From Dicyema japonicum (lineage: Eukaryota > Dicyemida > Rhombozoa > Dicyemidae), in the NCBI GenBank assembly GCA_011109175.1, contig RDEW01000022.1:494315-558314 (forward strand): 64,000 bases of DNA. The letters run 5' to 3'. A program made the position numbers and the translations under genes. This document shows positions 13,200 to 48,644 of the stretch, in pieces; position 1 is the first letter of the stretch; each line of letters begins with the position of its first letter. The notes beneath the pieces were generated by a model. It was not told the DNA's origin. It did not search any database and was given only the letters and a program-made list of their open reading frames with translations.

Positions 13200-13818
13200 T
13201 TTCTAATTGCATTTTGAGGAAGATTATGTTTCCCACTGCCTTTCCGGAAAGAATTGCTTGTCGGTTATTGCAAATATTTCGGCCGACTTGTGTCCAATAC
13301 AGTGAGTTTGGCAGTCAGAGGCGGATACGAAGTGGGGTTCGTCAGACTATCATCTGAAGCTGATAGCGTCCTTTTCAAATTGGATCTGCTTAATGCTTTC
13401 AACTTGGTCAGAAGATCATCCTTGACGTTTGCTTGAAAAGATTGCCGAAAATATCTCCTTTGTCTACCATTCATATTCGAATCCAGATTGATTGGAGTTG
13501 TTAAGTGGCAAAAGGACGCTTCTGTGTAAGTTTGCCAACAGATTGATCTTTCTGAACAGTTGACCTTTGATGTTCAAAAACTGTCCCCTGCTGTCCAAAA
13601 TACTTTTCAACTACCGAAGATTTTTGTTATGATGAAGATTTGCTATCTCTCCCTGATGATGAAATTAAGTCGACCCTTGAGGCGAATTTAAATATACATT
13701 TTGATGACTATGGATATTTTCAAGCAACTCTGCCTGTTGGTTTTGGAGGATTGGAATACTTTCGGATGCCATATTTTTCTTCTTACGACTCCTCAAAGAG
13801 TTTGATGGTCCTCTACTC
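13200..13818 (+). mobile_element. LINE RT remnant, part before the hAT insertion
   Basis: RT motif A appears as LFKLDLLNAFNLVRRSSL near 13370-13425. The later segment, 13640-13818, reads LPVGFGGLEYFRMPYFSS, the GFGGL block that follows the RT in several non-LTR groups. The frame ends at the hAT target duplication (13811-13818) and continues in the same frame at 24589. Confidence 0.55.
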
Positions 13819-13970
13819 CAGTGGTTTCCAACCTAAAGGTCTTTGCGGAACTTTTTTATTTTTTGCGATACCCTTCCAATTCTATTATTACAATTTTCAC
13901 TTAAAACATAATCGTAATAACCAAAAACAAATTTAATGTAACTATTATCATAGTTGTGTTACGTTATGAG

Positions 13971-13987
13971 TAGGGCGATTTTTGTCA
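13971..13987 (+). repeat. Target-site duplication of SINE A, left copy
   Basis: TAGGGCGATTTTTGTCA, identical to 14336-14352. It is the first 17 bases of the hAT element, duplicated by the SINE insertion. Confidence 0.9.
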
Positions 13988-14335
13988 TAATAATAATAAC
14001 AGCCTTTTTCACGGAGCCGTGGTATTAGCTCCGCATAGGCAGGACACACACTTTATTTAAGTAAAGAACAGTTAATTTTAACTAATCGTAGAACCAAGGA
14101 ATGATCTTCACTTCTTTTTTTCTTTTTCTTGTGTGAGTGTCCTTTCTAGACAATCCAATTCCGCAGTGAGTATTCACTGATGACGGCGTCACTCGTCAAA
14201 CCCTTTCCGCATCGTAGATGCGTGGAACCTTCCACCAGGTGAACAGCAGCGAGATTCGAACCCGTAGCCTAAGCCACTTAAGCCCGACACCTAACCACTA
14301 AGTCGCTTCTCGGCCTTTTGGCTAAGATCAAAGTG
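13988..14335 (-). mobile_element. SINE A: tRNA-headed SINE with antisense U2 leader
   Basis: Read on the minus strand, the element starts with about 33 bases of antisense U2 snRNA. A tRNA-like head follows, with A-box-like TAGTGGTTAGGTG and B box GGGTTCGAATC. The body carries GACGCCGTCATCAGTG, the tail GCGGAGCTAATACCACGGC, and the 3' end is (TTA)n. An exact 17-bp target duplication flanks the whole unit. The tail can fold as a hairpin (CGGAGC with GCTCCG) and matches the 3' end of the RTE LINE at 29821-33190. Confidence 0.85.
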
Positions 14336-14338
14336 TAG
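14303..14338 (+). pseudogene. U2 snRNA 5'-end fragment joined to the SINE
   Basis: The 36 bases from TCGCTTCTCGGCCTTTTGG to AAGTGTAG equal the first bases of canonical U2 snRNA, except for one extra A before GTGTAG. This 5' region is nearly invariant in eukaryotes. It stops before the branch-point recognition sequence, so it cannot be a working U2 gene. Its last three bases overlap the target duplication. Confidence 0.9.
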
Positions 14339-14589
14339 GGCGATTTTTGTCAATAAAGTCAAAAATTCATATGTTCTTTAAAATTGTTTAAATTTTATAA
14401 AAATGTAGTTTTTAATCAAAAATATTATATTAATCGAAAGTTATAAAATCAAAAAGTCAAAATATTGGGTAATGTCAAAAAATCAAAATTTAATTTTTAA
14501 GGTCAATAAAGTCAAAAATTTTATTGATTTTTATTTTTTAATTTTTCGAGTTTTTAAATAAAATACTAGCGTGGCGATTGTTTAATCCA

Positions 14590-14692
14590 TCTACGATTAG
14601 TTAAAATTAACTCTTTTTTACTAAAAAAAAGTGTGTCCTGCCTATGCAGCTAATACTATGGCTCCGTAAAAATGTCTGTTATTATTATAGTA
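14590..14692 (+). mobile_element. SINE B: 5'-truncated SINE copy
   Basis: Matches the 3' third of SINE A: CTACGATTAGTTAAAATTAA, then GTGTGTCCTGCCTATGC, CTAATACTATGGCTCCGT and TTATTATTAT. It sits inside the hAT element at 13971-15894. Confidence 0.8.
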
Positions 14693-15723
14693 GGGTGGTA
14701 TCAATTATTAGAAATATGTCAACACACTTATTGGTAGAATTTCTGATCCAAAGAAAATATTTTTAATATCTTGTCGTCCATTGTCTTCTGCGGCTAACTC
14801 GTCGACTGTCTGTCAGATAATTGACGATGTGCTAAGGGATTTTGCGATAGATCGAGAGAATTTTGTATTACTGGTATCTGATGCAGCCAGATACATGGTG
14901 GCTGTTGCACAGGTATTGAAGGTTTTATACACGAATTTGGATAATGCAACATGTGTTCTTCATCTTCTTCATAACAGTTGCCGTAAAATAAGAGGATATT
15001 TTAAACTTGTGGATTTTTGAATTTCATCGATAAAGGCTGTCAAAAACAAGACACGAAGAGAAAATTTTGCTGAAATTGGGTATCCACCTCAAGTTATTCT
15101 AACAAGATTGGGAAGTTGGATGGAAGCAGCTTGCTATTATTGCAAAAATTACACAGAAATAAAAAAATAATTGAAAGTTTCGATGGAGAGAGGATTTTAG
15201 TAGAAATATGTTCGCAAGCGGTTTGTCAAAACGAACCACGTACAAATTTATCATTAACATTATGCCAATATGACGATATGTGAAATAATTAAGGCAGAAG
15301 AAACCTATTTCACTATAGAAGACGCAGTTGAAGACATTAAGAAATTCCATTTTGGGGACGATTTATGTGGAATCGGGAAGTATTTAGAATCAAGATTATC
15401 TGTAAATCTAGTGTTTTCTATTTCAAAAATGGAAAAGCAACATATTTCTCCATTTGTATACAACTGTCTTAATAAGTGTCCTTCCACATCTGTTGAGAGA
15501 AGTTTTTCTTTATTGAATAAATTATTTCTAAAGACCAAAATTTTAAACCCGAAAACGTTTCGAACTAAATTATTCTGTTTTTTAATAAAGATTTTAATTA
15601 GCTTTTTTTAATTAAAAAATTTTTTTGTAGATAAATTTATCATAAAGTCAATTTTTCGCTTCGCTTCCTAAAGAAACTTAGACGCTTAGCTACACTAAAA
15701 AGCCACGACGCACGTGAGACCCG

Positions 15724-47186: not shown

Positions 47187-48644
47187 CTAATACGAAATTA
47201 GAATGAAATAAGTCCCAATAAAATACAACGCCGAAAATAACACCAAAAACAGACGATCAAGGATCCCTGCTGCTTTGTTCCAGTCATCATCGATCTAACA
47301 ATAAAGGATAATAGTACCTCTTCATCTTCTTTTTTATTTTTGAAAAATTCTGAAATTTGGTATACCGCTTTGAAAAATATATTTAATTTTCCTCCATTTT
47401 TTAGTGATTTTAATGGTTTATTTAATTTATAATTTAAATCGAAATTGATTTCTTGCTCTTGTTGTTCCTCGTTTTCAATTACAATTTTCTTTGGTTTTTT
47501 CTTTTTTCTGCAAAAATTCTTCATAAATAAAAGCTTCGGCAATATTATGAAGAATATCTTTTTGGTCAGAGGTGTGAAGGTATGAGTTCCTGGAGACCTG
47601 ACCTTAACATTGAGGACGATGACTGCACAGATGATGGAGAGTGTCACTAGAATCAATGTGAACAGTAGATATTCCCCCACCAGAGAGATAACGAGGGACG
47701 TCGGAGGGATCAGGTCGACCAAAAAGAGAATATATACCGTCATGATCTGTAGAATGGACACACAAAGCGTCATTTTTTCGCTACTATCTGCCGGAAGGAT
47801 AAACACAAGGACTGTTATGGAGGAAATTATGGCACAGGGGACAATGAAGTTGATCACATAAAACAGTGGTTTCCTTCTCACAGTAAATGAGAAGGTCACA
47901 TCAATGTATGGCTCTATACAGCATTTGTAGTAACGGATATTACGTTTTACGCTGGTATTGACCAACTCCCACTCAATACTTTTCGAATATTCCGTTAAAT
48001 CAACGGTAACGGGTCCAGAGTCTCGTTTATAACTTGTAGATGAAGGAAGGAGGTCGACTATAAATCCTCCGTAGGTCCATGAACTAAACTTCATCTTGCA
48101 GTTTTGCTCGTCGAAGGGGAATCTGTCAACGTTGATGTCACAGAAGCTGTAGTAGATCATGGAAGGTTCCCAAACTACGGTCCCGTCGTGGTTAAGAGTC
48201 AGTTTGGTTGAGTGGTCGAGTTGGAACTGACCTTCAGCGCTAGATTTATTCACATATGGGTACTTGTCGTATAAAACAATGTCTGGGGTCCAAATTGAGT
48301 CTGAGGGAAGTCGAATGTTCTTAATGTTTTCGTATTGTAAAGGGTTCCACGTAAGGGCTGGATCCGTCCACCGCTGGAATGAGGAATTGCGGTTACCTGC
48401 TGCATCCTTACATCGAAGGTGATCACTTGGTTTTTGGTATCCTAAAACTGAGATAATGATGGCAGACCACATTGATGATCTCTCTGAGGACGAGGCCTAT
48501 GAAGACCTTTAGAGGTTGTGAGTCATGTGTCATTGGTCTAGCCATTTTAGCGAATCCTTCAGTTCTCTTCATAACGTCGTTGTATAGGTCCTGTTCAGAG
48601 TTGATAGCCATTAGAGCATGTATTAGAAAATATAGAATGTACAT
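47187..48644 (-). CDS. Nicotinic acetylcholine receptor alpha subunit
   Basis: Cys-loop ligand-gated cation channel subunit of the plasma membrane. Signal peptide MYILYFLIHALMAINS. Introns: 48442-48467 (26 nt), 48374-48396 (23), 47295-47317 (23); exons total 1386 nt, 461 residues. Ligand-binding half: INV-DTKNQVITFDVRMQQRW, WTPDIVLYDKY (loop A), Cys-loop CDINVDRFPFDEQNC with 13 residues between cysteines, SSWTYGG (loop B), YYKCCIEPY (loop C). The adjacent cysteines mark it as an alpha subunit. The loop D position is Arg (VRMQQ), as in muscle alpha, so it probably needs a partner subunit for the complementary face. M1 to M3 are clear. Removing the last intron restores M4 (DDDWNKAAGILDRL.. ending FILISY). 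The M2 9' residue is Gln (SILQIMTVYIL), not Leu; the -1' Glu of cation channels is kept. Confidence 0.95.

Follow-up and report, generated by a model that had tools for sequence, protein, structure and literature searches.

A U2 snRNA 5' end joined head to head to a tRNA-type SINE within one target-site duplication in Dicyema japonicum

How did the 5' end of a spliceosomal RNA come to lie, in opposite orientation, against the 5' end of a SINE in the genome of Dicyema japonicum? The locus sits in a 64-kb stretch of genomic DNA, referred to as the window, and coordinates are window positions unless a locus handle (L) precedes them. A first-pass annotation had described a 17-bp target-site duplication (TSD) enclosing the SINE and the U2 piece, and had named twin priming as one of three routes by which an inverted capture might arise. 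Here we describe the locus, compare its parts with the rest of the genome, and weigh the ways in which it could have formed.

Structure of the SINE–U2 locus

Along the plus strand, the locus consists of one TSD copy, a (TAA)4 tail followed by the reverse-complemented SINE, U2 nt 1–37 in sense orientation, and the other TSD copy. The SINE reads leftward and U2 rightward, so that their 5' ends meet head to head. The features are as follows.

13970–13987, unstranded: left TSD copy, GTAGGGCGATTTTTGTCA; 13973–13987 correspond to bases 1–15 of an R repeat
13988–13999, minus strand: (TAA)4 tail, the SINE 3' end
13988–14302, minus strand: tRNA-type SINE without the outermost 9 bases at its 5' end; G14302 is shared with U2
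14302–14338, plus strand: U2 snRNA nt 1–37, identical to the U2 genes of the same genome and head to head with the SINE
14335–14338, unstranded: GTAG common to U2 nt 34–37 and the TSD; microhomology and proposed priming site
14335–14352, unstranded: right TSD copy
14338–14590, plus strand: repeat R, the target element, with its right limit set at the start of the next SINE fragment; its first 15 bases are duplicated left of the SINE

The direct repeat GTAGGGCGATTTTTGTCA is exact at 18/18 positions and encloses both the SINE and U2. The single duplication around both elements is therefore confirmed, at a length of 18 rather than 17 bp. With both parts inside one 18-bp TSD, the earlier view that U2 arrived with the SINE insertion, inverted and head to head, also holds. 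The inner joint between SINE and U2 shares at most one base (G14302). At the outer joint, the overlap between U2 and the target had been noticed as three bases (TAG); it comprises four (GTAG). A further piece of SINE, truncated at its 5' end and lying on the plus strand, occupies 14590–14688; its identity is 87%, and it ends in TTATTATTATA.

The U2 piece, the SINE and the target repeat

The U2 piece at 14302–14338 matches U2 nt 1–37 at 37/37 positions; in the 64-kb window its E value is 7e-16, against 0.14 for the second-best U2-like match. It starts exactly at U2 nt 1, with an intact 5' end and a truncated 3' end. Rfam at gathering thresholds gave no match in the window; in a whole-genome search with RF00004 (25 matches; 46 candidates scored), the piece reached 38.5 bits (E = 8e-5; cut-off 46). 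Near full-length genomic U2 copies read GTCGCTTC... and ATCAAAGTGTAG with some variants, and their common form, GTCGCTTCTCGGCCTTTTGGCTAAGATCAAAGTGTAGTATC, again with some variants, is identical to the inserted U2. Because these copies carry the same sequence, the extra A that the first-pass annotation had pointed out is native to U2 of this genome, and the 5' sequences agree throughout.

Genome-wide, 20 places resemble U2 nt 2–30 with at most 3 mismatches, and the window locus alone adjoins the SINE. This result comes from aligning the SINE to 45 mutually overlapping U2 loci that include all 20 places; among them it gives no second SINE copy with U2 at the 5' end, which the first-pass annotation had suggested looking for. 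SINEU is the name for a SINE family with a sense snRNA head common to many copies. We rejected a family with an snRNA-derived head as the source of the present locus, given that U2 is inverted and that just one of the 20 U2-like places adjoins the SINE. At the other U2 loci, no SINE piece lies closer than ~200 bp. Locus L041, the same place as L013, holds at 1346–1530 and 1747–1941 a U2 gene and an older, internally deleted SINE. This SINE lies head to head ~217 bp upstream of the gene, the shortest such distance on the 5' side among these other loci, and has an identity of 92–93% across its two pieces, with ~121 internal bases missing. A U2-like stretch in L131 that lacks the 5' end of U2 was discounted as old or fortuitous.

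The window SINE belongs to a short dispersed element with a microsatellite tail and TSDs, the features by which a tRNA-derived SINE is recognized. Its box A and box B candidates, GGGTTCGAATC and TTAGTGGTTAGG on the minus strand, were identified by eye only; ARAGORN found no gene in L001. The element is 100% identical to another copy in the 64.7-Mb genome over 316 bases, which indicates that it is young. A 21-base segment of the SINE 5' end occurs at 440 genomic sites with at most 1 mismatch. Many other copies continue at the 5' end to CCACCCGGC(T), given on the plus strand; the window copy stops 9 bases short, and similar losses are seen in other copies.

TSDs were surveyed in a non-random sample of 85 SINE loci, made up of the 8 best matches plus 77 taken from the first 100 sites (of 440). 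From 83 anchored sites, 26 were dropped beforehand, leaving 57 with sufficient flank and, at the expected distance, a tail of (TAA)2 or more. In 33/57 copies a TSD of 8 nt or longer stands directly at the SINE 5' end, and 18/57 have none. The remaining matches of at least 8 nt lie farther from the 5' end (6/57: 18 nt in the window, 13 in L008, 12 in L059 and 8 in each of L067, L082 and L088). Among 11195 mis-paired flanks used as a control, 553 reach 8 nt, 195 reach 9, 4 reach 17 and 0 reach 18. Distant 8-nt matches are thus meaningless by themselves. The 18-bp repeat of the window, displaced by exactly the U2 piece, stands out because TSDs sit directly at the SINE 5' end in 33 of the 57 copies.

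In L008, ~123 bp that look LINE-like by eye (~1829–1951) separate the SINE 5' end from the 13–14 bp TSD. In L059 (~1531–1568), the insertion target is itself a SINE, older and inverted, and ~37 bp of additional local target precede the second copy of the TSD. Self-inversion of the SINE was considered for L059 and dropped: what looks like an insert is a duplication of local target and makes no clear case. A head-to-head SINE pair (L117) was not used, no tail having been found there.

The target belongs to a repeat family, R. The 17-mer TAGGGCGATTTTTGTCA, being the left end of R, is not unique and has 122 genomic matches at ≤1 mismatch. When the R end of L107, together with the flank to its left, served as query (scored for 40 of 289 candidates), 34 of the 41 other matches listed start within 4 bases of TA, 7 start further in, and none of those listed extends further out. 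L107 and four fetched R copies (L133–L136) read TA, then GGGCGATTTTTG(T/C)CA straight into ATAAAGTC. The TSD sequence thus joins ATAAAGTC directly in 5/5 fetched copies, with at most 2 mismatches at the left end (one in L107). These copies represent paralogous empty sites, and their continuity shows the target to be intact once the insert is discounted: the insertion lies inside an R copy, in its first 15 bases, and the repeat continues beyond the right TSD copy. Since the TSD is the left end of R, the edges of TSD and repeat coincide. This coincidence at the left edge, which the insertion model does not require, is the main weakness of our reading. The five R copies differ from the window R at 3–9 of 79 bases and the SINE and U2 show no difference from genomic copies, so R seems to be the older component. 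TA precedes 5/5 fetched R copies as well as the window's left copy. The window R copy contains two stretches ~150 bp apart that are 75% alike; no terminal inverted repeat was recognized.

Proposed insertion mechanism and alternatives

We read the locus as the footprint of an insertion accident, and this accident was probably a single retroposition event with two primers, combining target-primed reverse transcription (TPRT) of the SINE RNA with twin priming on U2 RNA in trans. Of the three routes that the first-pass annotation had offered, twin priming fits best. From the observed structure we infer four mechanistic steps. The mobilizing LINE enzyme would nick the plus strand after ...TTTTTGTCA, and the plus-strand end would prime reverse transcription of the SINE RNA, starting at the UUA-repeat tail and stopping 9 bases short of the 5' end; this TPRT step is proposed on account of the tail, the TSD and the family. 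The minus strand would be nicked ~18 bp away, giving ...ATCGCCCTAC-3'. This end (...CCCTAC-3') could anneal through CTAC to GUAG of U2 RNA (nt 34–37) and be extended to U2 nt 1, the end of the template. Joining of the two cDNA ends through at most one shared base (G) would then place SINE and U2 head to head in one TSD. The start at U2 nt 1 is as the end of an RNA template would give, and the head-to-head polarity and the 3' truncation of U2 agree with the predictions of twin priming. The annealing step is suggestive only, because a four-base microhomology would occur at a random joint with p roughly 0.016 (hand calculation, equal base frequencies). It also counts against this reading that the window is a single case for this SINE and that two further 3'-cut U2 pieces have other endpoints, their alignments running to nt 85 and 93.

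Four other origins can be weighed against retroposition with two primers. Because TA precedes R in 5/5 fetched copies and in the window's left copy, and U2 nt 35–36 are TA, the locus might have been built by stepwise DNA events, in which a TA-inserting R landed in that TA of U2 and the left match is a second R copy rather than a TSD; the truncated U2 piece of L053 likewise stops at TA. Such a history is improbable. It predicts U2 at the left and the remainder of U2 beyond R, whereas the left flank is not U2 and no U2 beyond nt 37 is present in the window. R also resumes at base 16, exactly as a TSD demands, and seems older, with its 3–9 differences in 79 bases, than the unchanged SINE and U2, and the exact junction of the SINE with U2 nt 1 is left unexplained. 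Filler DNA copied off a U2 gene during second-strand break repair, which has a possible parallel in the local duplication at the SINE insertion of L059, is very improbable: the piece starts exactly at U2 nt 1, the end of the RNA, and a DNA patch would have no reason to end at the transcription start.

We regard 5' transduction, in which a source SINE was transcribed from upstream through an antisense U2 copy, as extremely unlikely. The U2 gene of L041 with its head-to-head SINE ~217 bp away illustrates the kind of arrangement needed, but its SINE pieces are 92–93% identical and lack ~121 internal bases, the 20 U2-like places include no source locus in which SINE and U2 abut, and the GTAG overlap with the target would be accidental. 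An assembly error that fused the SINE with a U2 read deserves equally little credence; although the assembly does have gaps, one of them adjoining a U2 copy (L015), the joint is internal to the contig, 13700–14700 contains no Ns, and an exact TSD copy stands on either side.

Retroposition with two primers raises the question of where on U2 a primer would land. In normal function, GUAGUA of U2 pairs with the branch site. A fold of the U2 5' end as isolated RNA leaves nt 35–49 unpaired and nt 31–34 paired, a mixed picture as to accessibility. Two separate 3'-truncated U2 pieces stop at nt 37 (with the SINE) and nt 36 (at a LINE 3' end). We put forward, tentatively and as a rather doubtful generalization, that during retroposition DNA primers land preferentially on those loops of spliceosomal RNAs that pair with their substrates, in U2 on GUAGUA. 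Not all U2 pieces fit; alignments of the pieces without a 3' part end at nt 37 (window), 36 (L053), 85 (L027, from nt 4) and 93 (beside L016). If U2 endpoints at GUAGUA recur, such chimeras would constitute a genomic record of the snRNA loops accessible to DNA ends. Matches to the other snRNAs numbered 15 for U5, 10 for U6 and 11 for U1. A U6 match at G000:C159:1438198-1438246 covers model positions 1–54 only, lies below the cut-off and is perhaps a 3'-truncated U6 copy.

The piece that stops at nt 36 is found at L053 1495–1530 and in a duplicate, L132 (the two loci being at G000:C157:33393 and C169:50469), where U2 nt 1–36 come immediately after the 3' tail of a LINE and share its orientation. 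With several substitutions, the L053 piece is old; L053 and L132 are identical at 389/404 positions. Among the best 40 of 139 candidates for the LINE end, only L053 and L132 span the U2 piece (query positions 151–186), and the other 38 scored copies end at positions 144–173. The 5' end of this LINE, and hence a TSD, was not found within 1.5 kb.

Relation to known chimeras and other captures

The first-pass annotation held that known snRNA chimeras all share the orientation of their element. This is incorrect: inverted, 3'-truncated chimeras of U1, U2, U5 and U6 with human L1 or SVA have been published, with a drawing of twin priming for U5 and the same mechanism deduced for U1, U2 and U6 (PMC4476161). 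As described there, these chimeras, U2/L1 included, resemble the present locus in opposite orientation, 3' truncation, a single TSD and joint bases shared with the target. What sets our locus apart is its partner, a tRNA-type SINE that ends in (TAA)n, and its host, an animal that is not a mammal. The same paper reports priming at the exon-pairing loop in U5 chimeras, and its same-orientation U6/L1 template-switch chimeras likewise carry a second small RNA at the 5' end of the element, although U2 is opposite here (PMC4476161). Antisense chimeras of 5S, tRNA halves and U5 with L1 have also been described, and twin priming was proposed for the antisense kinds (PMC13174262). The antisense 5S chimeras share with our locus an RNA start at the junction with the element; those reported with 5S, tRNA halves and U5 involve human L1 instead of a SINE (PMC13174262). 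In the main text of that paper the terms "U2 snRNA" and "RNU2" are absent, and U1/2 snRNA is named among SINE heads (PMC13174262).

A related comparison is offered by 5'-inverted elements, for which PMC2912911 gives 2–5 bp of microhomology at ~70% of the outer joints of L1, one inverted Alu, and 4/477 for SVA. As presented in that study, the inverted 5' segment and the outer-joint microhomology are alike, but in those insertions the element itself supplies the inverted segment (PMC2912911). The GTAG outer joint and the inner joint of ≤1 nt match the published pattern of 5'-inverted L1 (PMC2912911).

In the open-licence literature, judged by titles and abstract openings, we found no inverted snRNA/SINE chimera outside mammals. 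The kind of chimera is already known; new are the host animal, the SINE partner and the endpoint in the branch-site-pairing GUAGUA of U2. Trans twin priming on spliceosomal RNA, described before for human L1 and SVA, is thereby extended to a SINE of a different animal lineage, which suggests that such accidents are a property of LINE-type reverse transcription generally and not of L1.

One other SINE may carry a captured RNA sequence at its 5' end. In L088 (481–558), the first SINE base is immediately preceded by a full-length tRNA-like sequence that includes CCA and has the same orientation, with a 9-nt TSD match TATAGCTCT beyond it. In the corresponding search, the 13 other matches ended at query positions 77–80 (12) or 81 (1); the discriminator is base 79 and CCA occupies 80–82, so none of them runs through CCA. 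A template jump, from end to end, to a mature tRNA would leave this pattern, and L088 may be such a same-orientation case; its TSD match is short enough for chance, and the exact tRNA borders carry the case.

Elsewhere in the window, an acetylcholine-receptor-like gene lies on the minus strand at 47198–48496. The protein that it most resembles, at 67% identity, is one filed under Octopus sinensis, and the other 119 proteins listed match at 41–52%. D. japonicum was isolated from octopus, and its genome was reported at 67.5 Mb, as stated in PMC6736024. The Octopus sinensis record may be parasite contamination.
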